Assembly: GCF_000482245.1 (NCBI RefSeq)
Contig: NZ_AWNH01000068.1
Location: 1 to 37,573, forward strand
Origin: Leptolyngbya sp. Heron Island J
Lineage (GTDB): Bacteria; Cyanobacteriota; Cyanobacteriia; Phormidesmidales; Phormidesmidaceae
Length of the DNA: 37,573 nt
Direction of reading: 5' to 3'
Part shown: in pieces, positions 15,985-34,699 of the stretch
How the letters are laid out: the number at the start of each line of letters is the position of its first letter
Numbering within the stretch: the first letter of the stretch is position 1
Made by a program: the position numbers and the translations under genes
Notes under the pieces: model-generated
Databases searched by the model: none
What the model saw: only the letters and a program-made list of their open reading frames with translations
Told to the model about the DNA's origin: nothing

Positions 15985-16027
15985 ATGTTTTGCCTGCGAA
16001 ATGGCGGCGTGTTGTCGGCAATTATGA

Positions 16028-16106: not shown

Positions 16107-16194
16107 AAGGGGTTGCATAACGTTTTTTGACGTGCTATACCGTGGTGTGAGGCATACTTATGTCAGTTACTCTTTATTGACGTGAGTTAATGCC

Positions 16195-16550: not shown

Positions 16551-16887
16551 CGAGCTATCAGCTCTAGTCGAATCTAATGCACGCAGTATCCAGGCCCTTA
16601 GCCAAGAATGGCGGGCTGCTGCTGAGGTCAACCGCGTTGATATGGCTGCTGTTAACCAGCGGATGACGAATATTGAAGCGACGTTAGAGCGCACAGAACG
16701 AATTCAGGAAAATAACTCAGTTCAATTAGCTGAACTAACTACCTCTGTAGCTGAAACCAATCAACGGATTCAAGTCTTAATTGAAGAAAGCCGCGATACT
16801 CGTAACTGGTTACGAGCAGCTCAAGAAAATATACAAACCTTATTCTCGGAGATACGAGAGATATGGAATCGGATTAACGCAGCATGA
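16537..16887 (+). CDS. Coiled-coil protein 1 (116 aa)
   Basis: A 116-aa, almost entirely helical protein with heptad pattern (DELSALVESNARSIQALSQE, NQRMTNIEATLERTERIQEN, ETNQRIQVLIEES) ending EIREIWNRINAA. It is paralogous to the 152-aa gene 170 bp downstream (shared ETN-R-(I/V)Q-L and (I/L)-x-EIW endings). Proteins of this style often form trimeric or dimeric rods attached to membranes or DNA-bound partners. Here it is coupled to RHH proteins, so it may oligomerise them. Confidence 0.65.
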   Translation: MTTIDELSALVESNARSIQALSQEWRAAAEVNRVDMAAVNQRMTNIEATLERTERIQENNSVQLAELTTSVAETNQRIQVLIEESRDTRNWLRAAQENIQTLFSEIREIWNRINAA

Positions 16888-17056
16888 TAAACGTGTCTTT
16901 GCGAGCGTGTCAGACTATCTGGCTAAATTGCCCGAATAGAAAGCTGAGAAGGACGGTCGAAGCTTGTCCAATCTTGTGGGCTTATTGCTAGAGCTACAAG
17001 CATCTGAACTACAGCAAGAGTATGAGGCTGAACAGCACAAAGGAGCTAAGCGATGA
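16884..17056 (+). pseudogene. Broken third RHH gene
   Basis: The frame from 16886 reads DKRVFASVSDYLAKLPE, then TAG (16937-16939), then KAEKDGRSLSNLVGLLLELQ to a TGA at 17054-17056. Ignoring the stop, this is an RHH protein: strand VFASVSDYL, helix LPE-KAEKDGR, helix SLSNLVGLLLELQ. The only nearby ATG (16884, overlapping the TGA of the upstream gene as ATGA) is in a different frame, implying an indel just after the start as well as the nonsense change. The stop still overlaps the start of the next coiled-coil gene as ATGA, preserving the RHH-coiled-coil gene order. Confidence 0.65.
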
Positions 17057-17511
17057 GTGAGGATCGATTGACTCGCATTGAAACTAGTATTGAAGAGCTG
17101 GTTAAAGCTGTAGCTATCACGAACGACTCAGTTAAATCACTGCGGACTGAAGTATCTGAGACTTCAGCCACAGTCAAAGAAGTTGCCCAAACTGCCACAG
17201 AAACGAATAGATCTGTGCAGCAGTTGAGGGCCGATATGGCTAAAGCGCTTGAAGGTAGCACAAGTTACACCGACGCATCCTTTGGTGCCGTAGTTCAGGC
17301 CATGGATGAGCGTGATAGCGAAGTTAGAGCCGAGCAGAAAAAAACGGAGGCATTACTTCAAAACCTCATTGATGATGCTAGGACAGACCGAAAAGCCAAT
17401 AAGGATGCTCTAACGGCATTTCAAGAAAGCTTCCTACAACTCGTAACCCAGATTTCAGCACGGTTGAACGAAATTTGGACTGAGGTTCAACAAATGAGGG
17501 ATGCATCATGA
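17053..17511 (+). CDS. Coiled-coil protein 2 (152 aa)
   Basis: A 152-aa helical protein with long heptads (RIETSIEELVKAVAITNDSV, ETNRSVQQLRADMAKALEG) and a C-terminal ARLNEIWTEVQQMRDAS. It is similar to coiled-coil protein 1. The duplication RHH then coiled coil is thus visible twice. The start overlaps the broken RHH gene, and the stop overlaps the next gene as ATGA. Confidence 0.65.
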   Translation: MSEDRLTRIETSIEELVKAVAITNDSVKSLRTEVSETSATVKEVAQTATETNRSVQQLRADMAKALEGSTSYTDASFGAVVQAMDERDSEVRAEQKKTEALLQNLIDDARTDRKANKDALTAFQESFLQLVTQISARLNEIWTEVQQMRDAS

Positions 17512-17840
17512 ACCGCAAAGTTTTTCTTCAGCTAATTGCTATGTCTAGCCTGGCGTGGTTGATCCCACCAAAGATAAGAGCTAAGGCTATCGCTGAGTCA
17601 TGGCCTTGCTCTTTCGATGTAGAGAACTGGAAGGCACCAACAGCTATCTATCCGCTGCAATCAAAAACAGCTTTGAAGTTTCATGAGCAAAAAGTCGATT
17701 ATTTAAAAATGCTGGGTCGGTTTGGTCGCGGTATTAATGAAAGCCAACAGACGTTATTAGATTTTCTTCAATACCAAATTGATTTTTGGGAATTCGATCA
17801 TATTCGATATGGGCATCTAAACAAAGTTTCAAAACCTTGA
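17508..17840 (+). CDS. Hypothetical protein with N-terminal hydrophobic signal
   Basis: A 110-aa protein: basic start MNRKVFLQLIA, hydrophobic MSSLAWLIPP, then a mature part rich in aromatic residues (FDVENWKAPTAIYPL, KLGYH-type ending). It has the look of a short exported or membrane-tethered protein, although the hydrophobic stretch is modest. It is coupled to the upstream coiled-coil gene by ATGA and is the last gene of the unit. Function unknown. Confidence 0.55.
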   Translation: MNRKVFLQLIAMSSLAWLIPPKIRAKAIAESWPCSFDVENWKAPTAIYPLQSKTALKFHEQKVDYLKMLGRFGRGINESQQTLLDFLQYQIDFWEFDHIRYGHLNKVSKP

Positions 17841-18667: not shown

Positions 18668-19138
18668 TTGAACCATAACATACGCGAAAATTCTTATCCT
18701 CATTCTAGCAAAAGTGTCCCTGATTCCTCCACTCACCACCATCACCCTAAGACTCCGCCGACTTGCCTCTTAGCCAATAACACCCTCTGGACTGCTATCA
18801 ACACTACGTATTGCCCCCCTGAACTCCTTTGGGAGGAGATCGCCGCACTACTTAAGACCCAAAAGATACCGCCTAAACGCTACAAAGCTAAATTTTTAGA
18901 ACTCCGCAATATTGATCAAATCTGGCTACATCTAATGTGGCTTCATCGTTTCTCGGGTCATTATTTCGAGCCTGATGGACGCAGGCCAACTGCAAAGGAT
19001 CACCGAGAAAGCTTTAAAGCGTATCTAGCTAATTTAAAAAAGCTGGGGGCCGAGCATTACATTCAAATGCTTACCGAGCTGCGCTTAGCAGCCTATCAGG
19101 ACAAGCTTGCTGCGATGAGGGTGCGTTATGGCGATTAA
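18668..19138 (+). CDS. Hypothetical 156-aa protein coupled to the rep gene
   Basis: A 156-aa protein. The first 35 residues are His/Pro/Ser-rich and low complexity. The rest is a compact helical domain (LWEEIAALLKTQKIPPKRYK, IWLHLMWLHRFSGHYF, and a C-terminal LTELRLAAYQDKLAAMRVRY). TTG 18668 preceded by AGGAAGG is the likely start. The gene overlaps the replication gene start by 11 bp, so it may be a translational-coupling or loader protein for replication. No family is recognised. Confidence 0.6.
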   Translation: MNHNIRENSYPHSSKSVPDSSTHHHHPKTPPTCLLANNTLWTAINTTYCPPELLWEEIAALLKTQKIPPKRYKAKFLELRNIDQIWLHLMWLHRFSGHYFEPDGRRPTAKDHRESFKAYLANLKKLGAEHYIQMLTELRLAAYQDKLAAMRVRYGD

Positions 19139-22100
19139 TGCGCAATCTCCTGCCGCCAGAGCCCCCATAGATTTCCAAAGCGAACTCATCAACGGCTCAG
19201 CGATCAGCCCAGCACTCGCTGATCTCAACACGCAATTTCTTCAAGGGGACGCGCTAGCGTCCGTGCTCTTCAGCCAGCACAAACCAAAAACAGCCGATAC
19301 CTATACCTCAGTCATCCAGCATGGTGCCTTGGCATTTTGCGGATTAGACCCAACCGATAATTTCACCCCGACCACTCCCAGCCGATTTAAGCCTGTCCAA
19401 CCCAGACAGAATCGTGATGATTCGATCAATAAATATGAATCACGTCCGTTGCCACCTAAAAACAAACGACAGCACCTAGGGTTTTTCAGCATCGATCTGA
19501 CCACATTTCAGGCGATCGCTGAACGATGTGGTATTGCAATGCCAGCCTCTATACCTTTAGAGAATCCAGCACTTTCTGAAACCTTCTGGCATTGGGTTAA
19601 GACCAACGCAGTCCCTCTCTACCTGGCCGAAGGCGAGAAAAAAGCCCTCTCTTTGCTGAGCCATGGTTACGCGGCGATCAGCCTCGCGGGCATTCGTATG
19701 GGTGCCAATCGCATAAGAGTGAGTGGTTCGACCAACTATGTTATCCATCCTGATCTCGTTCAATTCTTTGGGTGTGATCGCAACTGGACGATTCTTTTCG
19801 ATTTCGCTCAAACGCATAACCAGCGTAAAAACATGCGCTCCGCAATTATCACGCTGGGGAATGCGATCGAGACCGAACAGACTAAGGCAGGTCACAAACC
19901 AGGGCCTAATGTGGTGCTACCCCATGGACCTGAAACAGGCATTGATGATGTCTTTGCTCGATCCGCGAATCAAGCCCACTCTCTGATCTACCTAAACAGT
20001 CAAGAATTTCAGAGCTTCAAAGCAGACTATTTTGTTAACTGGAAACGTGGGATTGATCCGAAAATCTGTAAGCAGATTGTCAAATTTCAATCGAAACAGT
20101 ACTACTCCGATGCGTGCCCCGAACTTCTAGAAGAAGGGCTTGTTTGTCTGGGCGGGACGATGGGTTTAGGTAAAACCCATCTCGTCGAGCTGTTGCGGAA
20201 AAAATACCCAGGGCGATCATTCCTGAACATCGGTCATCTTATAAACCTGCTTGAGAATCTATCAGCACGTCTAGGCACCCAAAGCTATAGATACCTTGAT
20301 ATTCAGCAGATTCACTCATGCCGTGAGCTGTCGATCACATTCGATTCGCTGCATAAATTGCTAAAAGACGGTGTGCTTGCATGGGTGCCCGAGATTGTTT
20401 TTATCGACGAGGTGAAACAGGGGCTTGAGCATTTACTTAAAGGCAGTACCTGTAAGGGCAAACGCTCAATTCTAATCAAAACACTGGGGTTGATCCTCTC
20501 TCAAGCTAAGCTAATTATCTGTGCAGATGCAAACCTGGACACAACCACGCTCAAAGCCTTATCAGCGGCTGCTGGACGGAAGCCTGTTGTCCACCAAGAT
20601 CAGAGGCTGTTGCCGTCTCGTGATGTCTACTGGTATGGGGATGTTGGTGGAGACTACATGATTGACCAGATCCACACCGCTCTGATAAATGGTGAGCGTG
20701 TAGCGGTTCCTAGCGATAGCAAAAAGTTTCTCCTTAAACTTGAGCGCTCATTCACCGACCCGCAATCTCGTGCGGCTATTGCTCAAGCATTGGAATGTGG
20801 CGACTCGCAGGCAGCCGGACAACCTAGAGTTTATGTGCTCAGCTCTGATAATAGCGGGAGCACTGAGGGACGCAGGATTCTACGCGATCTAAATGTGAGT
20901 GTTTTAGATTTTGATCTATTCTGCTTTTCGCCGTCGCTCGGTAGTGGGGGTGATATCTCTGTTGAGCATTTTGACAGTGTTTACGCTCATTTCGCGGGTT
21001 TTAGTATTGATGCTGAGCACTGTATTCAGATGCTGTATCGTGTTCGGTCTCAAGTGCCGATGCATATTGCGTGTAGACCTAATCATATGAAGCGCGACGC
21101 ACCATTGACTGTTGAGGGTGTAGAAGAAACACAAATCACTCGTAGTTGGGCGAGTGAGTTCTTAACCCAATCTCCACGGAGTTTTGACCAATTTACAAAA
21201 GATTTTTCTTGGGCTTTCAAGGCTTACTGTGAGTACACAGCAGCAAGTAATCTATCTCTCAAGTACCTGGATCGAGATTTGAAATCTCTATTAATTAATG
21301 CTGGGTGCCACATCATCGATTGCTCTCAGGATGGGGACCGACAGGCTAATCCTGTTACTAAGAGTATTTATGAAGGGATTTCAGGCTCTCTAAAAGCTGA
21401 GTACTGCGAGGGTGTGGCTAACGCGACTGAGATCGACGACGAAACATATAAAAATCGCATCGGCAGAGACGATCTAGAACCAGAAGAACGGCTAGAGATG
21501 GATCGGTACCGCATTGCCAAAACATACGCTACACCTGGTATCACGCCCGAGTTGGTGAAGCTGGATGATAACGGTAAGTTCGCAAGAAAACTCCGTGCGC
21601 TTGACGATTTGATTGCCGAACCTGGGGAGCCTGTACAAACACGCACGGGACCAGTCCCAGGGCCACCGGCACATGTGAAAGAGCGTGATTTGTGGGACTA
21701 TCACAACGAGGATTTTCTACCTGACCGAAGACACACCGTAGCGGGCTGGCGGCTTAGATTCACCTTGGGAATTCGTGATATCGCGCTTCATTTAATTAAT
21801 GGGAGCGAATTACATGCGGAACACCCGTTGGTCACTGATGCTATTGCCGCAATCTACGAGTCTGGAATGCGTGCGCATGTCAGACGTGTTTTAGGCTTCA
21901 GTATTCCCACACTGAAGGATGGTGAGGAGCTTGAACCCATGCAGGTTATTAGGCTGTTCCTTGATCAGCTTGGGCTACCCATCAAAAGCCGCAAGAAGAC
22001 GCTTGACGGGTCTCGGGTGGCGATGAAATACCTCGATATTTCATCGCCTAAATGGGAACTAGCAACCCACACCATAGGTGCTTGGGTGGCGCAACGAGTT

Positions 22101-24203
22101 GAGAAACAGGCGGCTGAAGCCAAAACACGCTCCGCTACAGAGGCCTTTATCGATCAATTAAATGCCGCGTACAACCGGCCAGCTGTCCGGCTTAAGCCCT
22201 CAGTTATTTGGCTCAAACCGACTAGTGCTGACTACCAAAAACATCTTGCCGACATTGCCCAACAGACCCGGTTAGGGGTTGATATTGAGACCTTTGGTAA
22301 CGACGCAAAGAATATCGAGGGTTTGCATCCATGGCGCGGAAAGATTCGACTCATCCAAATTGCTACTGAAGACACGACGTATGTGGTCGATCTTGGTGGG
22401 CGAGATGATGATCGTGACGCGATCCATGTCCAACTATCTGAGTTCTGGATGATGCTCGCTCGGCTTATGTCTAATCCAGACATTCTCAAAATAGGTCAAA
22501 ATTTCCACTTTGATTTGCGGTTCTTACAGATGCAGTACGGGATTAAGGCTAAAAATGTCGCTTGCACATTGATTGGTGCTCGAACATTCTTTGGTGATTA
22601 TGCGAAAGGTGAATCGAAGACTAATGTGACCCCCATTCTTGAAGGCGGTTATGGGTTAGGTAATCTTGTCAAAAAATTCTTAGGAGTCACAATTGATAAA
22701 GGTGAGCAGTCCTCTGATTGGGGTGCTGAACTAACACCGTCTCAGATTGATTACGCCGCAAAAGATCCATGCATCACACTACAGCTTCATGAAGCGATAG
22801 AGAGACTTTACGCAAACGAGCAACATCCGTTGTACTCGGCGGATATCAGAAATATCTGGCAGCTTGAGAATGACATTATCCCCGTTGCTTGTGAGATGGA
22901 AGCAAACGGGATGCCTTGTGATTTAGCTGAAGTTGAGCGCCAGCTGACTAAGATTGAGATCGTTGAGCATGAGTTGCAAACCCAATGGGCTGATTTGTGC
23001 CCAGATATCTCATACACGCAGGTTGGTAAACTGAAAGACTTCATCAACGAACAGTACGGCTTAGGGCTCACCAAGCTAAACAAAGCAGCATGCGCTGAAC
23101 ATAAAGATAATCCACTGATAGCGCTACGTCTAAAATTACGCGCACTGCAAAGCTTAAAGGACAATTTAGCCGCATTTAAGCGCAGTGCTGAGCAAGATAG
23201 CTCAATTCACACAATGTTCCGCACACAAACCGGACTTGGACGGTTCTCGGCTGGTTCAAATCTCGGGAGAAACCGCAAGGCTAAAGACCTTGTGAATATT
23301 CAATCGATTAGTGCTAAAGATAACCCAGCACTGAAAGGTTACGACCTGGGGCACCCACGGGAGGCCATTAAGCCTAATGCTTCGCTAGTATTCTTGGTAA
23401 TCGACCTGGCAGCGGCACATGCGCGGATTGCAGCGGATTTAGCCAAGGACAATACAGCAATTGCGGCCTTTAATGATCCGACTATCGATAACCACTCCCG
23501 TGTTGCAGCGTATGTTGCTCGCGCTGTGGGTGTTGATTGGGATGGTGACACAATCGCTAAACTCCGGAAACTCCACACCCCTGATGGAATAAGGGCGAAG
23601 AGCTTCCGAGATACCGCGAAAAACACGTTTTATGGCTTCCTGAACGGCGCAGGCCCCCATAGGCTACAAGAGCAAATCGCGGCTAATACAGGTGTTAGAC
23701 CTAGCTTAGAGGAGGTTAAAGGCGCTATTGAGGGTTGTAAGATTCTTTACCCTAATATTGTTCAATTCCAGAAAGACCTAATGACCAGCTTGGAGAGTAC
23801 AACATTGGCTCTTAACGGCTCAGAATACGTTGTCTCTACCACACGAGAGGGCTCTCGTATTCTCCTAGAGAAAGTTGAAAGCCGGTTCCACCCAGGGCGC
23901 TATGAGCCCCCGTTCACCCAGTCGCTAGCGGCGACATGGACTCGGATTGAGGCTACGGCTGTTAAGCGAGCGCTGGTAGAACTTCACCAGCTTGCAGAGG
24001 ACCGACCAGAACTGCAAATTAAGCTACGAGGCTATATTCATGATGAGGTTGATATCACGTGTTCTCCTGACCATGCTAAAGAAGTAGCGCAACTTGCAAA
24101 CGACTGTATCGGTAACCACTTCGCGGCCATGCTCGATTATGTTTCCGATGGTAGGGAGAGTGACCCTATGAAGCTAATTGCAACTAGCTGGGCTGAGAAG
24201 TAA
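19128..24203 (+). CDS. CyRepA1-type replication protein fused to family A DNA polymerase
   Basis: A 1,691-aa multifunctional replicase. Residues about 110-300 match the DUF3854 (TOPRIM-like) domain of cyanobacterial CyRepA1 plasmid initiators (VPLYLAEGEKKALSLLSHG, GANRIRVSGS, WTILFDFAQTH). Residues 335-650 are a helicase with Walker A LGGTMGLGKTH (K349), DEx box FIDEV (D427-E428) and a late YRVRSQVP motif. Residues 650-1020 are unassigned and helical. Residues 1045-1230 form a DnaQ-type 3'-5' exonuclease: VDIETF (D1052, E1054), FHFDLR (D1129) and YAAKD (Y1209, D1213). Residues 1330-1691 are a PolA palm/fingers: TGLGRFSAGS, motif A VIDLAAAHARIAADL (D1426), motif B RDTAKNTFYG (R1494, K1498, Y1502) and motif C IHDEVD (H1638-E1640). 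All catalytic residues are kept. Ordinary CyRepA1 proteins are roughly 1,000-1,200 aa and lack the polymerase. Confidence 0.9.
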   Translation: MAINAQSPAARAPIDFQSELINGSAISPALADLNTQFLQGDALASVLFSQHKPKTADTYTSVIQHGALAFCGLDPTDNFTPTTPSRFKPVQPRQNRDDSINKYESRPLPPKNKRQHLGFFSIDLTTFQAIAERCGIAMPASIPLENPALSETFWHWVKTNAVPLYLAEGEKKALSLLSHGYAAISLAGIRMGANRIRVSGSTNYVIHPDLVQFFGCDRNWTILFDFAQTHNQRKNMRSAIITLGNAIETEQTKAGHKPGPNVVLPHGPETGIDDVFARSANQAHSLIYLNSQEFQSFKADYFVNWKRGIDPKICKQIVKFQSKQYYSDACPELLEEGLVCLGGTMGLGKTHLVELLRKKYPGRSFLNIGHLINLLENLSARLGTQSYRYLDIQQIHSCRELSITFDSLHKLLKDGVLAWVPEIVFIDEVKQGLEHLLKGSTCKGKRSILIKTLGLILSQAKLIICADANLDTTTLKALSAAAGRKPVVHQDQRLLPSRDVYWYGDVGGDYMIDQIHTALINGERVAVPSDSKKFLLKLERSFTDPQSRAAIAQALECGDSQAAGQPRVYVLSSDNSGSTEGRRILRDLNVSVLDFDLFCFSPSLGSGGDISVEHFDSVYAHFAGFSIDAEHCIQMLYRVRSQVPMHIACRPNHMKRDAPLTVEGVEETQITRSWASEFLTQSPRSFDQFTKDFSWAFKAYCEYTAASNLSLKYLDRDLKSLLINAGCHIIDCSQDGDRQANPVTKSIYEGISGSLKAEYCEGVANATEIDDETYKNRIGRDDLEPEERLEMDRYRIAKTYATPGITPELVKLDDNGKFARKLRALDDLIAEPGEPVQTRTGPVPGPPAHVKERDLWDYHNEDFLPDRRHTVAGWRLRFTLGIRDIALHLINGSELHAEHPLVTDAIAAIYESGMRAHVRRVLGFSIPTLKDGEELEPMQVIRLFLDQLGLPIKSRKKTLDGSRVAMKYLDISSPKWELATHTIGAWVAQRVEKQAAEAKTRSATEAFIDQLNAAYNRPAVRLKPSVIWLKPTSADYQKHLADIAQQTRLGVDIETFGNDAKNIEGLHPWRGKIRLIQIATEDTTYVVDLGGRDDDRDAIHVQLSEFWMMLARLMSNPDILKIGQNFHFDLRFLQMQYGIKAKNVACTLIGARTFFGDYAKGESKTNVTPILEGGYGLGNLVKKFLGVTIDKGEQSSDWGAELTPSQIDYAAKDPCITLQLHEAIERLYANEQHPLYSADIRNIWQLENDIIPVACEMEANGMPCDLAEVERQLTKIEIVEHELQTQWADLCPDISYTQVGKLKDFINEQYGLGLTKLNKAACAEHKDNPLIALRLKLRALQSLKDNLAAFKRSAEQDSSIHTMFRTQTGLGRFSAGSNLGRNRKAKDLVNIQSISAKDNPALKGYDLGHPREAIKPNASLVFLVIDLAAAHARIAADLAKDNTAIAAFNDPTIDNHSRVAAYVARAVGVDWDGDTIAKLRKLHTPDGIRAKSFRDTAKNTFYGFLNGAGPHRLQEQIAANTGVRPSLEEVKGAIEGCKILYPNIVQFQKDLMTSLESTTLALNGSEYVVSTTREGSRILLEKVESRFHPGRYEPPFTQSLAATWTRIEATAVKRALVELHQLAEDRPELQIKLRGYIHDEVDITCSPDHAKEVAQLANDCIGNHFAAMLDYVSDGRESDPMKLIATSWAEK

Positions 24204-24266: not shown

Positions 24267-24773
24267 ATGGGCCTATCACTCAATCAAATTAAAGCCGCTC
24301 AGCTGTTAGCGCAAGGTGTGAAGGGCAAAGATATTTACCCTCAACTAGGAGTATCTGAGGCCACGTTCTATTCCTGGAAAAAGTCAAAAGCCTTCCAAGA
24401 AACCCTGGATCTGCTGTTGCAGGCTGAAACACGTCATAGTGCAGAGCTAGCGAGTGTTGCCGATAAAGATGATGTCGCAGCAGGGTATACCGATGAAACA
24501 TGGATTCGTGAGCAACTTAAACCCATACTGACAAACTACGCGCAACTTGTCGCTGATGTCGTTGAGCATTTCAAGGATGATGTTGAGAGTTTCTCCTCTC
24601 GACAAATACCTAATCTGTTGCAATCTCTGGGGGCATTAGTAGAAACGTACCGGAGTTCAAATGACCGTATAGCAGGACTTGAGGATATATTACGTGAGCT
24701 TAGTCGCATTGAGAAAGAGAGGACGGCAAAAGTCGTTTCAATCGCCGCAGCTGACGATTCTACAGCAGCATAG
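24267..24773 (+). CDS. Terminase small subunit-like protein
   Basis: A 168-aa protein with an N-terminal helix-turn-helix (LSLNQIKAAQLLAQGVKGKD, GVSEATFYSWKKSKAFQETL) of the phBC6A51/Terminase_2 style. A helical oligomerisation region follows, and the C-terminus is Ala/Asp-rich. Small terminase subunits bind the packaging site and load the large subunit. Its position directly before, and overlapping, a large-subunit gene supports the call. Alone, the HTH would also fit a generic regulator. The ATG 24267 start gives the domain at residue 3. Confidence 0.75.
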   Translation: MGLSLNQIKAAQLLAQGVKGKDIYPQLGVSEATFYSWKKSKAFQETLDLLLQAETRHSAELASVADKDDVAAGYTDETWIREQLKPILTNYAQLVADVVEHFKDDVESFSSRQIPNLLQSLGALVETYRSSNDRIAGLEDILRELSRIEKERTAKVVSIAAADDSTAA

Positions 24774-26166
24774 CGAAGCGGACAGAGATAACAGTGAGGA
24801 AATATGGAAACCGCCTGCAGACTGGTGTGATTGGGTTTCAAATATTCCGATTAAGAGCGGTAGCGGGATTAGCACGTTTCAGCCCTTGCCCTGGCAACAA
24901 CAAGTCAGTGATTGCATTATTGGTAATCGTAACAGCCGGAAGAGCTACACGTTTTGTAAATCGCGACAGGTAGGAGCAACCACGTTGTCCTTATCTGTTA
25001 TTGATTTCCTATGTCTTACGATTCCCGGATTCCGTGCCTTGCTACTGCACAAGACTTTCTTGGATGCTCAGTTGCTAGGGGATAGGAATCGAAAGTTTCT
25101 CACGGCGGCTAAGGTGCCGATGGTGAGTGATTCCCAGAGCAGACAGGAATTCCCTAATGGATCAGTAGCCTATTTCAGAAGTAGTGACCCTGAGAGCTGC
25201 GGGCGGGGTCTTGATTCCGTGGACTGCGTGGTGTTTGAGGAGTGTGCATTTTACTGTGATCTTCCGGCCACCATTGGTGCGATCGCCCCAGCTCAAACCT
25301 GGGTAGACAACGCGATTAGCCTATTCGTGAGTACCCCTAACGGCAAACGGGGTGAAGGTGCCCGATATTGGGAAATGGTGAGCGGGGGCGATGATAAAGC
25401 TACCGAAGATAAGTTAAGCGCTATCAGGAACGGTCAGGAAGAGCCGTTTCAGATTCTTAGGGGTGATACTCCGTCAGTTCTATTTCTAACCCACTGGAGA
25501 GCCATAGCGCGTTATGCGGTTGAGCCAGATTTCAAGGCTCGAATCATCCAGGAATCCGGGATCTCAGAGGAAACCTTTGCTCAGGAATTCGATCTTGATT
25601 TCTCACAATCTGAAGCTGAAGCCGTATTTAGCTTTGAACTAATTGATAAAGCGACATCTGGGGAATGGGAAGCTGCTAATTCAGATGGTCTCTACTATTT
25701 GGGAGTAGATAGCTCTACAAGCGGTGCTGACTACTCCGTTGCTGTAGTGCTCAGGAAAGATGGTGATGATTATCAAGTGGTGAAACTCTACCGAAAGCAG
25801 AAAGGAACATCTGAGCAGCATTTAAGCGCTATTGCTGATTTGATTAGAGAGTATGAACCCATCAGCACCACAATTGAGAAAAACGGGACAGGTCAAATCT
25901 GGATAGAGCAATTATCGGGGATGGGATTACCTACATCTATTGACGGTTTCAGCACTACTAGGGATAGCAAAGAAGGTCTTATCGGCAGATTGGTAATAGC
26001 GCTTGAAAGAGATGATTTATCAATTCCCAAGAGCCAGATCACACAAGAACTTTTAAGCTATCAGCGCAAGGCTAATGGGCGTTTAGAGGCTGCTCCAAAA
26101 TCTCACGATGATTGTGTGATGGGTTTGGCGCTAGCGTTACAGGCAAGTCAGTATGGGGTCTTATGA
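24679..26166 (+). CDS. Phage terminase large subunit
   Basis: A 495-aa packaging ATPase-nuclease. The ATPase has Walker A-like KSRQVGATTLS (94-104), the Lys-first variant usual in many TerL proteins. A Walker B-like VVFEECA (184-190) has Glu in place of the usual Asp. The coupling motif is FVSTPNGKRG. The RNase H-like nuclease has GVDSSTSGADYS (D344), TTIEKNGTG (E400) and KSHDDCVMGLAL (D477, D478). Both domains look intact. The start is uncertain: no ATG precedes the conserved part, and TTG 24679 or GTG 24694 lies within the small-subunit gene, giving an overlap of 80-95 bp. No portal, protease, capsid or tail gene is present in the window. Confidence 0.88.
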   Translation: MRIYYVSLVALRKRGRQKSFQSPQLTILQQHSEADRDNSEEIWKPPADWCDWVSNIPIKSGSGISTFQPLPWQQQVSDCIIGNRNSRKSYTFCKSRQVGATTLSLSVIDFLCLTIPGFRALLLHKTFLDAQLLGDRNRKFLTAAKVPMVSDSQSRQEFPNGSVAYFRSSDPESCGRGLDSVDCVVFEECAFYCDLPATIGAIAPAQTWVDNAISLFVSTPNGKRGEGARYWEMVSGGDDKATEDKLSAIRNGQEEPFQILRGDTPSVLFLTHWRAIARYAVEPDFKARIIQESGISEETFAQEFDLDFSQSEAEAVFSFELIDKATSGEWEAANSDGLYYLGVDSSTSGADYSVAVVLRKDGDDYQVVKLYRKQKGTSEQHLSAIADLIREYEPISTTIEKNGTGQIWIEQLSGMGLPTSIDGFSTTRDSKEGLIGRLVIALERDDLSIPKSQITQELLSYQRKANGRLEAAPKSHDDCVMGLALALQASQYGVL

Positions 26167-26831
26167 AAAAGCTAAAGTATCTAGAATCAAAAGGCTCACA
26201 GCACTTTTATCAGGTGAAAAATGCCGTGATTGTTGTTGATCGAATCATTGCAAGCCTTTATAGCTGCGAAAGGTCAGGCAATACAGCCCTATGCTGGTTC
26301 ATCAAGTCAGGTGATAGTGTGGCCCCCGTGGAGCTGTGGAAGGATATTAAAGGGGCTGATAGCTGGCAATCACTTCTAGATAGCACTGGAAAGCCTGAGA
26401 TAGAGTTATTGATTAATCCTGTGGCCGGTGCGAGTGACTTCAAAAACCATCCAATCATCAAATCGTTAGCCGGTATTGCTCGCAGCTGGGGTAAATCAGT
26501 TCCTTCTGGAAAACTGGCCGGGCCTTTGAATCTCTTCGCGTTGCAACAATCCCTCGAATATCTGGAATTCCAGAATCAAATAGACTGGCTATTCTACAGC
26601 GCCACAGCAAAACACAAGGAACTGATTAAGCGTGGTGATATCGAAAGGGCTGAAGTAGCCGCACTATGTCAAGGGATCGTCTTTCTAGCGGGCCAACTTG
26701 AAAGCGATACGGACTTCAGTAGTAGCTTCGGTGTAGCGGTAAATACTTCGAGACGACGACGCCATATACCCCGTGCCAGAGATAAGGAATCCTATCGGGT
26801 AGGCGGTAGAACCTATAGACCACGCAACTAA
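26163..26831 (+). CDS. Hypothetical protein coupled to terminase
   Basis: A 222-aa protein whose ATG (26163) overlaps the TerL stop as ATGA. The first 150 residues are an alpha/beta domain (KNAVIVVDRIIASLY, NTALCWFIKSGDSV, ELLINPVAGASDFK). A helical part follows, then an arginine-rich tail (SRRRRHIPRARDKESYRVGG). No family is recognised. The coupling suggests a packaging accessory, for example a nuclease regulator or DNA-binding adaptor. The tail would bind nucleic acid. Confidence 0.6.
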   Translation: MKKLKYLESKGSQHFYQVKNAVIVVDRIIASLYSCERSGNTALCWFIKSGDSVAPVELWKDIKGADSWQSLLDSTGKPEIELLINPVAGASDFKNHPIIKSLAGIARSWGKSVPSGKLAGPLNLFALQQSLEYLEFQNQIDWLFYSATAKHKELIKRGDIERAEVAALCQGIVFLAGQLESDTDFSSSFGVAVNTSRRRRHIPRARDKESYRVGGRTYRPRN

Positions 26832-27106: not shown

Positions 27107-29230
27107 ATGAGTCAGTTGGAAACCATCGGAGCGATCGAAAAAAATCTGTGGAATGCGGCGGATACCCTACGCTCTAACTCCAGCTATGCCAGCAATGAGT
27201 ATTTCATGCCTGTAATGGGCCTAATTTTCCTGCGCCATGCCTACAGTCGATTTCTGGCGGTAAAGAAAACCATCAAGCTGCCGTCGCGGGGCGGTAAAAC
27301 TCGTGCGCTACGGAAAGAGGACTTTTCCCAGAAGAACGCTATTTTTCTGAAACCAGAGGCGCAGTTTGACTACTTGGTATCGCTGACGGATAGCGATGAC
27401 CGCGTCAAAAAACTGATTAAGGCGATGAAGTCCATTGAAGAGGACTACGAGACCCTGAAAGGGGCCTTGCCCAAGGCGGAATACCAGGAGCTAGATAACG
27501 AAGTACTGGGGAAGCTGCTACGCACTCTCAACCCGGAAGAGCTGAAAACAGCTACAGGGGATATCTTTGGTCGTATCTATGAGTATTTCCTAACTCGGTT
27601 TGCTGGAGAGAAGGCACACGATGGTGGGGAATTTTTCACACCGGTTTCGTTGGTATCGCTGATTGCGAATGTGCTAGAGCCTGACCATGGGATTGTGTTT
27701 GATCCGGCCTGTGGCTCTGGCGGCATGTTTGTACAGAGTGCGCGGTTTCTAGAGCGTCGGCACGACAACCCCCAAAAGTTGTTGTTTCGCGGTCTGGAGA
27801 AGAACGGAACTACTATTCGCCTTGCCAAGATGAACCTGGCAGTTCATGGGCTTGAGGGCGACATTCAAAAGGCCATTACCTACTATGAAGACCCGGCGGA
27901 GATGGTGGGCAAAGCCGACTATGTGATGGCAAATCCGCCCTTTAATGTGGATGAGGTGGACGAAGGCAAGATTACAAAGGATCCACGTTTGCCCTTTGGT
28001 CTGCCGGGAGTCAATAAGGATGAAAAGGTCTCCAACGGGAACTACCTATGGATTAGCTATTTCTACAGCTACCTAAATGAAAAGGGCCGCGCTGGTTTTG
28101 TAATGTCATCCCAGGCATCGAGTGCGGGGCGCGATGAGGCTAAAGTGCGGAAAAAGCTGGTGGAGACAGGCGATGTGGAAGTCATGATCGCCATTCGTCA
28201 GAACTTTTTCTACACCCGCCCTGTCCCTTGTGAGTTGTGGTTTTTGAACCGTGCTAAGCCAGAGGATAGACAGAACCAGGTATTGATGATCGATGCGCGG
28301 AATATCTACCACAAGGTGACGCGTAAGATTTATGACTTCAGCCCAGAGCAGCTTCAGAATATTTTGGCGATTGTATGGCTCTATCGGAAACAGGAAGACC
28401 GGTTTCTAGAACTGGTGAAGGATTACCTGGCACAGACGCTAAAAGAGGCTCAGCATTGCTTCTTCCTGAAGCAGGACGACACTAAGACTCAGCCTTGTCA
28501 GGATTATACTGATGCTCTGCTGGCTATGCAGAAGGTGATACAGCCGTTTGTGGGTAGCTTGAATAAAGAGGTCGCAACCACTGAACCCTTCACCGAATTT
28601 CAAACGGCTCTTGATACCGTAAACACGGATATTGCGACCTTTTATCAGGCGCTGGAACATGAGCAAAAGACCTGGACAAAGGAACCCGCTACTACTAATG
28701 CGGAACTGAATGAGGCGGTAGATCGGTTGGCTCCCATGGCAAATCAGAGTCGCGATCTGGTAAAGCAGGCAGATCTGGTCTATAAGCTAGCAGTACGGTT
28801 AATTGACCATTGTGAACAGGACCTGAACGCCAAGGAAAACGACCACTGGCCCAAGAGTAAAGAGATCTCCAGTCCCCGTAAGCAGGCTGATACCGCTCGT
28901 CAAGCCGTTGTGGCTCAACTCAAACAGGTATGGTATTTCCATAAACAGGCGGTATGGCTCACCGAGCGATTCCCCAAGGGCACCTACCAGGATGTGGAGG
29001 GGCTAGTAGCTCTGGTGGACCGAGAGAGCGTAGACCGGAAAACTATAGCTCAGAACGACTGGAGCCTTACACCGGGGCGGTATGTGGGCGTAGCTCCAGA
29101 GGAGGAAGATGAAGACTTTGATTTTGAAGAAGCCCTACGAGAAATCCATGTGGAACTGGAGGGATTAAACCAGGAAGCATCAGAGTTGGCGATTGCGATC
29201 GCAAAGAATTTTGAGGAGCTGGGGGTATGA
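27107..29230 (+). CDS. hsdM: Type I restriction-modification methyltransferase subunit
   Basis: A 707-aa N6-adenine methyltransferase subunit. The N-terminal helical domain (about 1-150) is followed by the catalytic domain with SAM motif FDPACGSGGMF (198-208) and the catalytic NPPF (276-279). TPVSLVSLIANVL just before motif I is typical of HsdM. After about residue 420 there is an unusually long C-terminal region rich in helices and ending in an acidic stretch (EEEDEDFDFEEALREI). HsdM proteins of about 500-530 aa are more usual. It would methylate host and plasmid DNA as M2S and form R2M2S for restriction. The stop overlaps hsdS as ATGA. Confidence 0.95.
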   Translation: MSQLETIGAIEKNLWNAADTLRSNSSYASNEYFMPVMGLIFLRHAYSRFLAVKKTIKLPSRGGKTRALRKEDFSQKNAIFLKPEAQFDYLVSLTDSDDRVKKLIKAMKSIEEDYETLKGALPKAEYQELDNEVLGKLLRTLNPEELKTATGDIFGRIYEYFLTRFAGEKAHDGGEFFTPVSLVSLIANVLEPDHGIVFDPACGSGGMFVQSARFLERRHDNPQKLLFRGLEKNGTTIRLAKMNLAVHGLEGDIQKAITYYEDPAEMVGKADYVMANPPFNVDEVDEGKITKDPRLPFGLPGVNKDEKVSNGNYLWISYFYSYLNEKGRAGFVMSSQASSAGRDEAKVRKKLVETGDVEVMIAIRQNFFYTRPVPCELWFLNRAKPEDRQNQVLMIDARNIYHKVTRKIYDFSPEQLQNILAIVWLYRKQEDRFLELVKDYLAQTLKEAQHCFFLKQDDTKTQPCQDYTDALLAMQKVIQPFVGSLNKEVATTEPFTEFQTALDTVNTDIATFYQALEHEQKTWTKEPATTNAELNEAVDRLAPMANQSRDLVKQADLVYKLAVRLIDHCEQDLNAKENDHWPKSKEISSPRKQADTARQAVVAQLKQVWYFHKQAVWLTERFPKGTYQDVEGLVALVDRESVDRKTIAQNDWSLTPGRYVGVAPEEEDEDFDFEEALREIHVELEGLNQEASELAIAIAKNFEELGV

Positions 29231-30423
29231 GTTGGAGAGTGAAAAAGCTTGGTAGTATTGCCAAGTTTTTGTCTGGTGGAACTCCCAGCAAACAGAAACC
29301 TGAATACTGGGGAGGAAATATCCCTTGGGTCAGTGCAAAAGACTTACTTACTTCACGAATCAGCGATTCTCAGCTACACGTTACTGAAGAAGGTTTAGCC
29401 AATGGAACTAAGTTAGTTCCTGAAAATACAATCCTCTTTGTCGTCCGGGGAATGTCTCTTGCTAAGGAGTTTCGTATTTCATTGTCAAAAGTTCCAGTAG
29501 CTTTCAATCAGGACCTGAAGGCGCTACAGCTCAAAGAGGATACGGACCCAAGATTTTTATTTTATTCACTTTATGCGCAACGTGAGCACATTAGACAGCT
29601 TGCAGGAGAAGCATCTCATGGGACAAAAAAGCTGCCTACTGAAGTTATAGAAGCTATAGAAGTAAGCATTCCTGATGATGTATTAATTCAGAAAAAGCTT
29701 GGAGAGGCTGCAGCACATTACGATGACCTCATCGAAAACAACCGCCGCCGCATCCAGCTACTAGAGCAATCTGCCCGCCTGCTCTACAAGGAGTGGTTTG
29801 TACACCTACGCTTTCCTGGTCATGAGCATGTGGAGGTTATCGATGGTGTGCCCCAAGGCTGGGAAAAAAGACCTTTATCCTATTTCTGTTCAGATATTCG
29901 TCAATCGGTTTCTCCTCAAGAGATGCCATCAGAAACACCATACATCGGCCTGGAACATATTCCTCGCCGCTCGATCACTCTTTCTGACTGGGGCTTCGCA
30001 AAAGATATCGAAAGCAAGAAGTTTCTCTTCGAGGAGTCAGATATTATTTTTGGCAAGATAAGAGCATATTTTCACAAGGTCGGTTTAGCTTTTACTTCAG
30101 GTATCACATCAGCTGATGCGATAGTAATTCGCCCTCACTCAAGAGAAATACATTCTTACTGCTTGATGCTAGCTTCTAGTGATGAATTTGTAGCACTAGC
30201 TTCTACAACGGCGAAGGAGGGCTCTAAGATGCCACGTGCTGATTGGAAGTACCTTCTCACATACGAGTTCTTAGAACCTTCTAAAACTGTTATTCAGTTA
30301 TTTAATGAACAAATTATTCCAATTACCCATCAACTTAAGGCTCTAGCTTTCCAAAATAAAGGGCTCCAACAAGCCCGCGATCTCTTACTCCCCCGACTCA
30401 TGAACGGTGAAATAACCCTATGA
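29227..30423 (+). CDS. hsdS: Type I restriction-modification specificity subunit
   Basis: A 398-aa specificity subunit with two target-recognition domains (about 1-150 and 205-370). Each starts with the typical WxxxxLxxx signature (WRVKKLGSIAKFLSGGTP and GWEKRPLSYFCS). Central and C-terminal conserved helices close the circle (ENNRRRIQLLEQSARLLYKE, QNKGLQQARDLLLPRLMNGE). It recognises a bipartite site that cannot be predicted from sequence. Both flanking junctions are ATGA overlaps, so the three subunits are translated in ratio. The two recognition domains are AT-richer than the conserved spacer, consistent with domain exchange. Confidence 0.93.
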   Translation: MSWRVKKLGSIAKFLSGGTPSKQKPEYWGGNIPWVSAKDLLTSRISDSQLHVTEEGLANGTKLVPENTILFVVRGMSLAKEFRISLSKVPVAFNQDLKALQLKEDTDPRFLFYSLYAQREHIRQLAGEASHGTKKLPTEVIEAIEVSIPDDVLIQKKLGEAAAHYDDLIENNRRRIQLLEQSARLLYKEWFVHLRFPGHEHVEVIDGVPQGWEKRPLSYFCSDIRQSVSPQEMPSETPYIGLEHIPRRSITLSDWGFAKDIESKKFLFEESDIIFGKIRAYFHKVGLAFTSGITSADAIVIRPHSREIHSYCLMLASSDEFVALASTTAKEGSKMPRADWKYLLTYEFLEPSKTVIQLFNEQIIPITHQLKALAFQNKGLQQARDLLLPRLMNGEITL

Positions 30424-33400
30424 ATCCCTACACCGAAGACACCCTGGTTCAAGCCACTACCGCCGACTATCTGCGCGATGAACTCGGCTGGGAATCCGTC
30501 TATGCCTACAATCAGGAAAACTTCGGTGAAGACGGCTTACTGGGTCGCCTCTCTGACCGTGAAGTCGTTCTCACTCGCTACCTCCGTAACAAACTAGAAG
30601 ACTTCAACCCTGGTCTGCCAGACGACGCCTACCGCGATGCCATTCGCCAAATCACCGAATACAGCAGCAGCCAAACCGTACTCGCCATTAACCAGGAAAA
30701 ATACAATCTCTTCAAAGATGGCATTCAAGTCAGCTTCCGTAATAACGAAGGCAAACTCGTTAAAGAGCGACTGCGCGTTTTTGACTTTGACCACCCCGAC
30801 AATAATCACTTCCTCGCCGTGCGCGAGTTCTGGATAAAAGGAGTACTCTATCGTCGTCGTGCCGACATCATAGGCTTCGTCAACGGCATTCCCCTACTCT
30901 TTATGGAGCTAAAGAATGTCAACAAAGACATCCGCGCTGCCTACGATGGCAACCTGGCCGACTACCGAGACGTCGTCCCTACGCTCTTTCACCACACCGC
31001 TTTTCTAATCCTCGCTAACGGCATTGATGCCCGTATCGGAGCCTCACCCGAAACCCGCTTTGAATACTTCCACGAATGGAAGCGTCTGGACGAAGACCAA
31101 AAAGGCGCTGTGGACATGGAAACCCTGCTCATGGGCGTGTGCCATAAACACACCTTCATGGACATCTTTGAGAACTTTATTACCTTTGATAGTTCCTCGG
31201 GCAACACCGTCAAAATTGTTGCTCGCAACCACCAGTATCTTGGCGTTAACCAGGCCATTGAATCCGTCAAAACCCGCGAAGAACGAGAAGGAAAGTTAGG
31301 CGTTTTCTGGCATACCCAGGGCTCCGGCAAAAGCTATTCCATGGTCTTTTTTACTCGCAAGATCCATCGCAAACTAGGCGGTAACTTCACCTTCCTCATC
31401 TGTACCGACCGCAAAGACCTAGACAGCCAAATCTATGACACCTTCGCCGGATGCGGCCTCGTAGATAATGACAGCGACCCTTGCCGCGCCAGCAGTAACG
31501 AGGACCTTAAAACACTTTTGGGACCCCACAAATCCCACATCTTCACACTGATTCAGAAGTTCACTAAAGACGTCGATCCAAACAAACCCTACAACACCCG
31601 TAACGACATCATCGTCATCACCGACGAAGCCCACCGCACACAATATGGCAGGCTATCGCTCAACATGCGAAACGCCCTCCCCCAAGCAAGCTACATCGGC
31701 TTTACCGGCACTCCCCTATTCACCGGCGACGAAGTCACCCGCCGTATCTTTGGTGACTACATTTCCACCTACGATTTCCAACGGGCCGTCGATGACCGCG
31801 CCACCGTCCCCCTCTACTACGACGCACGGGGCGACAAGCTAGGCATTACCACCAACGACATCAATGAGCGCATCGCCCAAAAGCTAGAGCAGCTAGAAGC
31901 CGAAGAAGCCGACATCAAACGACTAGAGCGAGAACTCAAGCGCGACTACCACATCATCACCGCCGATAAGCGCCTGGACCAGGTCGCTAAAGACTTTGTC
32001 ACCCATTACTCCACCGCCTGGGAATCTGGCAAAGCCATGCTCGTATGCATTGATAAACTCACCTGCGTCAAAATGCATGGTCTCATCTTCAAATACTGGC
32101 AGGAGCGCATCCGTGAACTAGAAGCAGCCCTCGCCTTTGCCCCTGATGAACAGGCCGAAATCTATCAACGACGGCAAATCGAATGGATGAAAGCCACCAT
32201 AGCCGCCGTGGTTGTCAGCGAACAACAAGGTGAAGTAGACAGCTTCCGCCAGGAGGGCTTTGATATCACTTCCCATCGTCAGCTCATCAAAAACGGCTTT
32301 GAACTAGACGATGGTAAATGCATCGATATTGAATCCGCCTTCAAAAAACAAGAACATCCCTTCCGCATTGCTATTGTCTGCGCCATGTGGCTCACCGGCT
32401 TTGATGTCCCCAGTCTGACCAACCTCTATCTAGACAAACCCCTCAAAGCTCACACCCTCATGCAGGCCATTGCCAGAGCCAACCGCGTCTTTGAAGGCAA
32501 AAACAACGGTCTCATCCTCGACTACTGCGGCATCCTCAAGAACCTGCGCCAGGCCCTGGCCACCTTTGCAGGGACCACTGACACCGGCAATGGAAGAGAG
32601 GCAGGCAGCCAACCCGTAGACCCAGCCAAACCCCAAGAAGAACTGTTGGCAGATCTAGCTGAGGCTATTGGCATGGCCCGCACTTTCTTGAGTGATCGCA
32701 ATTTTGAACTAGACCGCATTATCGAGAGTACTAGCTTTGCCCGGATTGCTGCGATCTCAGCTGCCAAAGAAGCTGTCAACGAAAACGACGAAGCCCGCAA
32801 ACGCTTCGAAATCATGTGTCGCGAGGCCTTAAAGCAGTTCAAAGCCTGCATCAACATAGACGGCATAAACGCCTATCGCAAGGATCGCGACGCCCTCAAC
32901 ATCATCTATACATCTGTCATCAATGACCGAGAGAAAGCCGACATCAGCGATGTCATCCGCCAGCTCAGGACCGTAGTTAATGAGGCCATTGATGTTCAAC
33001 CTGATCAAAGCGACACCCCAGACACCCTATACGACATCAGCCATATCGACTTTGACCTACTGCGGAGAGAATTTGAGCGCAGCGCCACTAAAAACACTAC
33101 TGTCCAAACTCTCAAACAGACAATCGATAAACGGTTAGGGAAAATGATGGGCGAAAACTCCACCCGCACCAATTATCAGCAACACTACGAGGAGATCATC
33201 AAAGCCTATAACAGCGAAAAAGACCGAGTCACCATTGAGGCAACCTTCGACTCCCTCATCAACTTTTACCAAGAGCTAGACGAAGAAGATAATCGTCACA
33301 TACGCGAAGGACTCAGCAAAGAAGAGCTAGCCATCTACGACCTACTCAAGAAATCAGATCTCAGCAGTGCTGATATTAAACTCATTAAAGCTATTGCAGG

Positions 33401-33638
33401 CCAACTGCTAGAAACCCTCAAAGCCGAAAAATTGCGGATCGAAAACTGGAAGAAAAAAGAATCCACCCGCGATGCCGTTAGCCAAACTATAAAAGACTTT
33501 CTTTGGAGTGACGACACAGGGTTACCAGTTGACAGCTATACAGAGGAAGAGGTGGAAGAAACCGCTGAGGAAGTATACCGACACGTCTTTAAGGTTTATC
33601 CTAGGCTGCCATCTCCTTTCTATGCAGATGCAGCCTAG
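30420..33638 (+). CDS. hsdR: Type I restriction endonuclease subunit R
   Basis: A 1,072-aa motor-nuclease subunit. The N-terminal PD-(D/E)xK nuclease has RRRADIIGFVNGIPLLFMELKN split as D149 and E163-x-K165. The SF2 translocase has Walker A WHTQGSGKSYS (297-306), DEAH box VITDEAHRTQYG (402-405), motif III GFTGTPL and a late motif containing QAIARANRVFEG. A C-terminal helical region (about 850-1060) contacts HsdM. All key residues are present, so the enzyme is probably active. Base composition is richer in C-ending codons than its neighbours, hinting at separate ancestry of the hsd cluster. The ATGA overlap with hsdS shows one operon. Confidence 0.95.
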   Translation: MNPYTEDTLVQATTADYLRDELGWESVYAYNQENFGEDGLLGRLSDREVVLTRYLRNKLEDFNPGLPDDAYRDAIRQITEYSSSQTVLAINQEKYNLFKDGIQVSFRNNEGKLVKERLRVFDFDHPDNNHFLAVREFWIKGVLYRRRADIIGFVNGIPLLFMELKNVNKDIRAAYDGNLADYRDVVPTLFHHTAFLILANGIDARIGASPETRFEYFHEWKRLDEDQKGAVDMETLLMGVCHKHTFMDIFENFITFDSSSGNTVKIVARNHQYLGVNQAIESVKTREEREGKLGVFWHTQGSGKSYSMVFFTRKIHRKLGGNFTFLICTDRKDLDSQIYDTFAGCGLVDNDSDPCRASSNEDLKTLLGPHKSHIFTLIQKFTKDVDPNKPYNTRNDIIVITDEAHRTQYGRLSLNMRNALPQASYIGFTGTPLFTGDEVTRRIFGDYISTYDFQRAVDDRATVPLYYDARGDKLGITTNDINERIAQKLEQLEAEEADIKRLERELKRDYHIITADKRLDQVAKDFVTHYSTAWESGKAMLVCIDKLTCVKMHGLIFKYWQERIRELEAALAFAPDEQAEIYQRRQIEWMKATIAAVVVSEQQGEVDSFRQEGFDITSHRQLIKNGFELDDGKCIDIESAFKKQEHPFRIAIVCAMWLTGFDVPSLTNLYLDKPLKAHTLMQAIARANRVFEGKNNGLILDYCGILKNLRQALATFAGTTDTGNGREAGSQPVDPAKPQEELLADLAEAIGMARTFLSDRNFELDRIIESTSFARIAAISAAKEAVNENDEARKRFEIMCREALKQFKACINIDGINAYRKDRDALNIIYTSVINDREKADISDVIRQLRTVVNEAIDVQPDQSDTPDTLYDISHIDFDLLRREFERSATKNTTVQTLKQTIDKRLGKMMGENSTRTNYQQHYEEIIKAYNSEKDRVTIEATFDSLINFYQELDEEDNRHIREGLSKEELAIYDLLKKSDLSSADIKLIKAIAGQLLETLKAEKLRIENWKKKESTRDAVSQTIKDFLWSDDTGLPVDSYTEEEVEETAEEVYRHVFKVYPRLPSPFYADAA

Positions 33639-34084: not shown

Positions 34085-34699
34085 ATGAAACGCACACTAC
34101 TTTCCGCCTTAACCGTTCTCGTTGCATCCGCTGCGATCTCACCCGTTGCATCCGCCGTCGAGCCCGCTAACTTCAATATTCAAGAAGCCCGCCTCGAAGC
34201 CCTCGACCGCCGCACAAAGAATTCCGTCCATAAGCTACGCCTGGAGCATCTCAACAATCAGACCAAGGCTATCGAAGATATCCAAGCTGCTCGTCTAGAC
34301 GCACTGGATGCCCGAACTAAGGCTATCGATAATATCCAGGAAGCTCGCTTAGATGCACTGGATGCTCGCACCAAGAACAGCGTTCACAAACTACGCCTAG
34401 AACACCTGAACAATCAGACTAAAGCTATCGATAACATTCAGGAAGCTCGCTTAGATGCACTAGATGCTCGTACCAAAGCCGTTGATAATATCCAAGAGAC
34501 TCGCTTAGACGCTCTGGATGCTCGTACCAAGAACAGTGTTCATAAGCTACGTCTTGAGCACCTGAACAATCAGTCCAAAGCCGTTGAGGATATCCAAGCC
34601 GCTCGTTTGGAAGCGTTGGATGCGCGTACTAAAGCTATCGACAATATCCAGGAAGCACGTCTCGATGCCCTCGATGCTCGGACTAAGTCCATCCGCTAA
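34085..34699 (+). CDS. Exported protein of three 52-residue repeats
   Basis: A 204-aa protein with a Sec signal peptide (MKRTLLSALTVLVASAAISP, cleavage expected after VASA at residue 24). Three 52-residue tandem repeats follow at 32-83, 84-135 and 136-187, plus a partial at 188-204. Each repeat is three helical sub-repeats of 17-18 residues with the core RLxxLxxxTK (for example ARLDALDARTK and LRLEHLNNQTK). The mature protein should be a long charged helical rod in the periplasm or outside. DNA copies differ mostly at third codon positions, so protein-level selection keeps the units alike. AAGGAG precedes the ATG at good spacing, and a terminator follows. Function unknown. Confidence 0.8.
   Translation: MKRTLLSALTVLVASAAISPVASAVEPANFNIQEARLEALDRRTKNSVHKLRLEHLNNQTKAIEDIQAARLDALDARTKAIDNIQEARLDALDARTKNSVHKLRLEHLNNQTKAIDNIQEARLDALDARTKAVDNIQETRLDALDARTKNSVHKLRLEHLNNQSKAVEDIQAARLEALDARTKAIDNIQEARLDALDARTKSIR

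Follow-up and report, generated by a model that had tools for sequence, protein, structure and literature searches.

The question raised by contig NZ_AWNH01000068.1 of Leptolyngbya sp. Heron Island J (assembly GCF_000482245.1) is why a phage-type packaging operon with both terminase subunits should reside on an element in which no capsid gene is recognised. The whole contig of 37,573 nucleotides was analysed and is termed the window below. An earlier sequence-only reading had offered three answers without ranking them, namely a satellite packaged into the capsids of a helper, a decaying phage-plasmid, and a plasmid using the terminase for another DNA-processing step, and it had noticed neither the terminal repeats nor the telomere resolvase nor the relatives described here. 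The first answer is now the best supported, because a family of such elements exists, its terminase is conserved, and what is shared with a capsid-bearing phage is chiefly packaging genes and replication proteins. Judged from sequence, the element is most likely a linear plasmid and rather probably a satellite of tailed phages, which would keep its own packaging motor and borrow the phage shell. The wider proposition, for which the chances appear about even, is that it represents an unrecognised class of cyanobacterial phage satellite, consisting of linear hairpin-ended plasmids which carry a motor (small subunit, large subunit and probably a third part) and no shell gene, and which exchange this motor with the siphophages into whose heads they are packaged.

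The packaging operon and the search for structural genes

The operon lies on the plus strand and begins with the terminase small subunit TerS (24267-24773, 168 amino acids (aa)), which was assigned through PHROG small-terminase families (best phrog_2538, E 1.4e-7), while Pfam yielded only helix-turn-helix matches and a sub-threshold Terminase_5; it is 44% identical to the TerS of the relative G11. The large subunit TerL (24679-26166, 495 aa), whose open frame contains in-frame TTG, GTG and TTG codons at 24679, 24694 and 24709, matches phrog_2 (E 1.1e-29) and Pfam Terminase_6C (E 7.7e-8). Its motifs include KSRQxG, Walker B, STPNG and three acidic nuclease positions; the usual lysine of the GK[S/T] P-loop is absent, a trait shared with the TerL of a capsid-bearing Nodularia phage (KSRQLGTT). 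A 12-row profile of the TerL family matches the gp17 packaging proteins of PDB over the ATPase part as well as phage large-terminase nuclease domains, and the window TerL alone matches phage nuclease domains of PDB. The third gene (26163-26831, plus strand, 222 aa) has an ATG start overlapping the TerL stop, and most relatives carry a gene in the same place. A longer reading of it gave no Pfam or PHROG match, and two models were of low confidence, with mean predicted local distance difference test scores of 55.7 and 41.7. The best Foldseek matches of the first model were not significant (E 0.067 and up); many were RNase H-like (resolvase, RuvC/RuvX, terminase nuclease domains) and others were not, and the product is possibly RNase H-like. 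The matches in PHROGs, Pfam and PDB, the motifs and the overlapping frames thus bear out the operon as first proposed, namely both terminase subunits, the large one with ATPase and nuclease, and a coupled 222-aa gene. By predicted function, TerS and TerL also supply one hallmark of phage satellites, functions or signals favouring their own packaging.

A second hallmark, the lack of a full set of virion genes, is likewise found in the window. No capsid, portal or protease family was matched when PHROGs were run on 10 window proteins and on 22 window open reading frames (ORFs; in a set of 26, 3 being in both), and the combined Pfam and PHROG scans of window proteins revealed no head, portal or protease family. 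The same PHROG scan recovered the portal, head protein and protease of the Nodularia phage and the head protein and protease of a Stenomitos phage. Weak matches fell on a coiled-coil repeat protein at 34085-34699, to the tail tape-measure family phrog_1533 (E 0.0017) and to a spanin (E 0.013), both of which look like composition matches. All window proteins longer than 240 aa have a non-structural assignment: the resolvase, HicB-like and pentapeptide proteins, an ATPase (by motif only), the replicase, TerL, HsdM, HsdS and HsdR; the same holds above 215 aa in a 13.8-kb Gloeothece element. The absence of capsid, portal and protease genes claimed by the sequence-only reading was therefore upheld by PHROGs and Pfam, and its further claim that no tail gene is present meets a single weak tape-measure match judged compositional. 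The structural module which it had proposed to seek beside the terminase of relatives was looked for by PHROG scan, and no family named structural emerged among 76 plasmid ORFs, which form part of 104 unassigned plasmid ORFs of at least 80 aa, and 85 contig ORFs. The latter come from the contig ORFs of at least 110 aa, 100 of 101 of which were scanned with 25 of the 41 families listed, the 85 being rescanned with all 17 families listed.

The probable linear form and its family

The window comprises an entire contig (C68) of a host genome of 8.06 Mb in 119 contigs. Its two ends are terminal inverted repeats (1-1045 and 36529-37573), perfect over 1,040 bp, each containing a 12-bp tandem array (at 64-122 in the left one). 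A telomere resolvase, or protelomerase, of 519 aa is encoded at 2159-3718 on the minus strand (PF16684, E 3e-34), so that the resolvase gene typical of linear protelomerase plasmids is present on the element; it is 23-28% identical to the protelomerases of six of the seven plasmid relatives. A ParA-type partition ATPase (5279-5872, plus strand; PF01656, E 7.7e-13) is followed by a probable ribbon-helix-helix partner (5865-6119, plus strand; sub-threshold matches), and a 1,691-aa replication protein with DUF3854, 3'-5' exonuclease and family A DNA polymerase regions (19128-24203, plus strand) precedes TerS, as its homologues do in relatives. Because the window is a whole contig with terminal inverted repeats, a telomere resolvase and a plasmid gene set, a complete, hairpin-ended linear plasmid is the likeliest reading, the closed ends being inferred for the window itself.

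With the window TerL as query, seven plasmids were retrieved from PLSDB at E 0.01, all cyanobacterial, of 13.8-26.8 kb and typed as non-mobilizable; the TerL of one relative recovered the same seven. Every one of them carries a protelomerase and a large replication protein. Because its diversity made TerL alignment A1 unsuitable for pattern scans, the narrower A2 and A3 were employed there; in sampling by phylum or class, A1 gave 10 of 386 genomes at E 1e-20 (the own genome and nine matches that were partial and distant), and at E 1e-30 it gave 6 of 388, the own genome among them. When 84,980 species genomes were scanned with the pattern of one TerL subgroup, 12 loci emerged. Ten of these, found in Symploca, Pelatocladus, Fischerella, Brasilonema, Nostoc, Okeania and Scytonema, occupy contigs of 12.6-29.7 kb, and one of the ten is the Calothrix plasmid again. 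All nine genomes of the other small contigs contain a resolvase, and PF16684 lies on the TerL contig itself in seven of the nine. Together, 19 cyanobacterial elements or contigs of 12.6-37.6 kb were collected, comprising the window, the seven PLSDB plasmids, nine GTDB contigs and two contigs of same-family genomes. The resolvase is on the same contig in 15 of the 19, according to a hidden Markov model (HMM) seeded with the window and the seven plasmids, of which the PF16684 count is independent; the remaining four are contigs of 13.1-14.1 kb and presumably fragments. The gene order replicase-TerS-TerL recurs in 10 of the 19. In six (Fischerella PCC 9431, Pelatocladus, Rivularia, Brasilonema, Scytonema and Okeania) the resolvase stands one small gene ahead of TerL, and this small gene is a recognised TerS in Fischerella PCC 9431 and Pelatocladus. 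As a side observation, the name of contig NODE_59 of Nostoc sp. XA010 (L161) gives an assembly coverage of 1016, and the element is perhaps high-copy or induced.

All eight full records have terminal inverted repeats, some imperfect, or hairpin-type palindromes. The repeats are perfect in Chondrocystis (1,099 bp) and Fischerella plasmid7 (1,491 bp) and imperfect in Gloeothece and pNPM9, and palindromes occupy both ends of the Calothrix record and an end of Fischerella plasmid8. Rivularia pRIV7116.01, deposited as circular, contains one palindrome with arms of about 1.1 kb (L029:4249-6439) and is probably a linear hairpin plasmid wrongly closed. Calothrix and pNPM9 have the tip AAATTAACGGAC in common; for pNPM9, whose hairpins were inferred from reads, the tip given in the available part of the original report is AAATTAACRGAC (PMC5987646). 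The end structures of these relatives fit hairpin telomeres.

Terminase sharing, a possible helper and competing explanations

An open TerL frame is kept by 17 of the 19 elements; in pNPM9 it is interrupted by an insertion sequence and in Scytonema it has stops. The ratio of nonsynonymous to synonymous substitution (dN/dS) of TerL is 0.064, 0.109 and 0.098 in three pairs, where dS is 1.7-2.8 and near saturation, and 0.31 in a near-identical pair. For the CHO/GLO and WIN/G11 pairs dS was not computable; in the former, TerL is 77% identical and the resolvase and replicase 62%. Where measurable, TerL is by these estimates under purifying selection, and a decay of its motifs in relatives, named beforehand as contrary evidence, is not observed for the family overall.

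The phage connection is provided by siphophages of Nodularia. Nodularia phages of 139-147 kb have a TerL about 61% identical to that of Fischerella plasmid8, and the TerL of relatives are about 40-65% identical to that of a 145-kb Nodularia siphophage, with 29-32% for the window's own group. The phage compared possesses portal and head genes. The comparison, which covered about 10 kb either side of TerL for GTDB contigs, disclosed a third gene common to the phage and four elements (31-34%), a TerS common to the phage and two elements (27%), distantly common replication proteins (27% between the window polymerase and the phage DNA polymerase) and two small regulator-like ORFs, each shared with a single element. 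Against 50,697 phage records, the third gene of one relative had only nine matches, all Nodularia phages, while the resolvase of one relative matched 10 Vibrio phage records and no cyanophage; the Nodularia phage gave no resolvase match either. Profile comparison did not link the third gene of the window to that of the Nodularia phage, and their suggested kinship follows from position and a weak N-terminal pattern.

The TerL tree places the Nodularia phage within a large plasmid clade. Chondrocystis and Gloeothece form a group (100/99) with L067, an IMG/VR record in which a weakly neck-like gene (phrog_5, E 0.005) was seen. The window's group includes C51, a 28.9-kb contig of the same genome, and G05, a chromosomal locus adjoining a central-tail-fibre J-like gene. 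At least four changes between phage and plasmid are needed among 22 labelled rows, counted with four phage-side rows (Nodularia, L067, L065 and G05), with C51 unlabelled and with L053, L068-L070, C27 and Scytonema left out. A single clade of the phage-side rows with C51 was rejected (approximately unbiased test, p-AU 4e-39). On this tree, the terminase is repeatedly shared between these elements and phages. In the Stenomitos contig JAHHIE010000002 (344 kb; L065/L066), two copies of a phage-like region with a head protein and a related TerL were seen 102 kb apart.

A satellite of this kind would live between infections as a linear plasmid, copied by its own polymerase, segregated by ParA and provided with new hairpin ends by the resolvase, as its gene set suggests; for the hairpins themselves, the support comes from relatives. 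When a siphophage infects, the plasmid TerS would mark plasmid DNA, and the plasmid TerL would dock on the phage portal and pump this DNA into phage-made heads. The particle would then carry the DNA to a new cell, where the resolvase could restore the hairpin form, as that of phage N15 does.

Several observations weigh against this account. Short matches only, the better ones between near relatives, were found where cos or pac DNA common to the operon surroundings was sought. The genome of the window has no match to the head families PF05065, phrog_264 and phrog_1005 or to the portal family phrog_113, so that any helper should come from outside or belong to another family; it would probably be an infecting phage. 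Heads of phrog_264 occur in 3 of 15 genomes or records, and the Nodularia-type head and portal in 1 of 23, which is the Nodularia phage itself; PF05065 was found in none of 15 genomes or records, a weak negative, since the Stenomitos genome, where phrog_264 detects a phage head, escaped it as well. No packaged copy appeared in five scans of IMG/VR viral_contigs, where the only TerL above 41% identity among the matches inspected was that of the Nodularia phage, the A2 scan covering the best 80 of 219 relatives. The window TerL is only 31% identical to the Nodularia TerL, so that the Nodularia comparison does not identify the window's helper, and the filling of a head is a difficulty for elements of about 13-38 kb when the related phage has 145 kb. 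Placing the Nodularia row inside the plasmids scores 14 log units better, an advantage that is not significant (p-AU 0.0625). Five of the seven plasmid records were deposited as circular, contrary to a linear form.

C51 itself (L031/L032) was considered as a helper and rejected: it carries a second TerL, 38-40% identical, and a phrog_51 small subunit, and of seven proteins scanned one matched small terminases, two matched families of unknown function and none a head gene. It may be a further satellite or the remnant of a phage. At C27:15943-17834 the same genome carries a third and more distantly related terminase, with a TerS similar to that of the window (40%, E 4e-6).

Among the competing explanations, the one that survives best, though we hold it unlikely, is that the terminase has been recruited for a task other than packaging, such as trimming replication concatemers or moving DNA between the cells of a filament with the help of a 715-aa coiled-coil P-loop ATPase (11992-14139, minus strand; motif in alignment A7). 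The terminase is indeed closely associated with the resolvase and, in 14 of the 19 elements (HMM), with homologues of this ATPase, and no helper was found. The two complete records of Chondrocystis and Gloeothece, however, have no ATPase match, and plasmid p8 of Calothrix PCC 7716 (AP025026.1, L216) lacks TerL while it carries a TerS-like gene together with resolvase, ATPase and replicase, although this record may be incomplete. In addition, pNPM9 is present in its lichen host despite a broken TerL, and in relatives TerL and the third gene follow their counterparts in a capsid-bearing phage.

A leftover terminase from an N15-like cyanophage stripped of its head and tail genes appears distinctly improbable for the family, yet such decay suits pNPM9 and Scytonema individually, with insertion sequences in the TerL and resolvase of the one and stops in the TerL frame of the other. 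Resolvase plus terminase is the combination of N15. The intact TerL frames, the dN/dS well below 1, the recurring replicase-TerS-TerL order and the Vibrio-only matches of the one resolvase searched argue against it. The 2018 paper on pNPM9, in its accessible part, noted the single, broken terminase of that plasmid and proposed phage remnants (PMC5987646). Beside this, two copies of IS1634 with the same protein accession were seen to interrupt its resolvase and terminase (L030:3760-5367 and 15961-17568). A particle built from an unrecognised capsid protein of the element's own is highly improbable: many small genes have no assignment, several relatives' PHROG matches are families of unknown function and structure prediction covered the third gene only, but the larger proteins of the window and of Gloeothece are non-structural (the ATPase by motif only) and the PHROG scans were negative with working positive controls.

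The 715-aa ATPase, with an apparent N-terminal membrane segment and a C-terminal zinc ribbon, remained without a match in Pfam, PDB and PLSDB at the thresholds applied. It is flanked by a GIY-YIG nuclease-domain protein (MUG113/T5orf172; 11426-11989, minus strand), whose homologues lie near the ATPase in relatives, and by a 218-aa coiled-coil-like protein without family match (14220-14876, minus strand), at whose position several relatives have a gene of 218-281 aa; both this gene and its counterparts are placed by position only. The C-termini of the GIY-YIG protein and the ATPase (11426-14139) exhibit a similar zinc-ribbon-like pattern. A type I restriction-modification cargo (HsdM, HsdS, HsdR) occupies 27107-33638 on the plus strand. 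Two neighbouring unassigned genes at 3924-5048, one with membrane-like segments, gave the impression of what could be a small defence pair, and the protein at 34085-34699 looks secreted and contains about three 156-bp repeats. Scans of the window for tRNA and Rfam families gave no match. No integrase family was found among the window proteins scanned with Pfam and PHROGs, where an excisionase-type match was weak (phrog_66, E 0.014); several relatives carry a tyrosine recombinase.

Comparison with known systems

If the satellite reading is true, a whole motor without a head implies that the contact of motor and portal can decide who is packaged. It would also account for the movement of small plasmids, although these are typed as non-mobilizable, between cyanobacteria of filamentous and other kinds. 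Cyanobacteria would moreover have a satellite system, its cargo in the window being a restriction system, that is open to tests with cultured phages.

The N15-type telomere phages (N15, PY54, phiKO2, and VP882 and VHML of Vibrio) resemble the element in their linear plasmid form, protelomerase and terminase, and the Vibrio members are the only phage records matched by the resolvase of the relative searched. Unlike them, the window has no recognised head, tail or lysis gene among the proteins scanned, and its terminase relatives are found in Nodularia-type phages and a cyanobacterial prophage remnant. The Nodularia siphophages (kac68v161, 2AV2) share the TerL of relatives and, in some, a homologous third gene and TerS, but are far larger, with portal, head and tail genes, and gave no resolvase match. 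A member of the family is already on record in pNPM9, the linear plasmid of Nostoc sp. N6, which has hairpin ends according to the 2018 paper (PMC5987646) and in which resolvase, ATPase, replicase, TerS and TerL are recognised here; it differs from the window in the insertions mentioned above.

Among satellites proper, cf-PICI, SaPI/PICI and P4 likewise have no full virion and steer packaging, and cf-PICI carry both terminase subunits; in the sections available of the 2023 paper, cf-PICI encode head genes, some SaPI have the small subunit only, P4 uses the helper terminase, and all integrate in the chromosome (PMC10690885). The window lies on a separate linear contig and has neither the integrase and chromosomal site of PICI or P4 nor the own capsid, portal and protease of cf-PICI and cf-PISP, as far as the window scans and genome-wide searches for three families of heads and one of portals reach. 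The same sections state that all known phage satellites are chromosomally integrated and that what they contribute is a small subunit, a packaging signal or heads of their own (PMC10690885). Plasmid-borne forms have nevertheless been described, in excerpts seen of each source: circular satellite phage-plasmids were proposed from glacier samples in a 2015 virome study (PMC4490671), pDolos is presented in a 2024 review as a plasmid satellite of single-stranded DNA phages (PMC11389934), and the PISP and cf-PISP satellite-plasmids of Vibrio (2026) also possess terminase genes, but are circular with capsid genes (PMC13230959), where the window is linear with a resolvase, TerS and TerL and no capsid gene. 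No description of this plasmid family was found in the literature searched (telomere resolvase or protelomerase, cyanobacteria, linear plasmid, phage satellite), subscription papers being mostly outside its scope. The satellite-plasmid as a kind is thus already in print, and it is the linear, motor-bearing, shell-less form that appears new.

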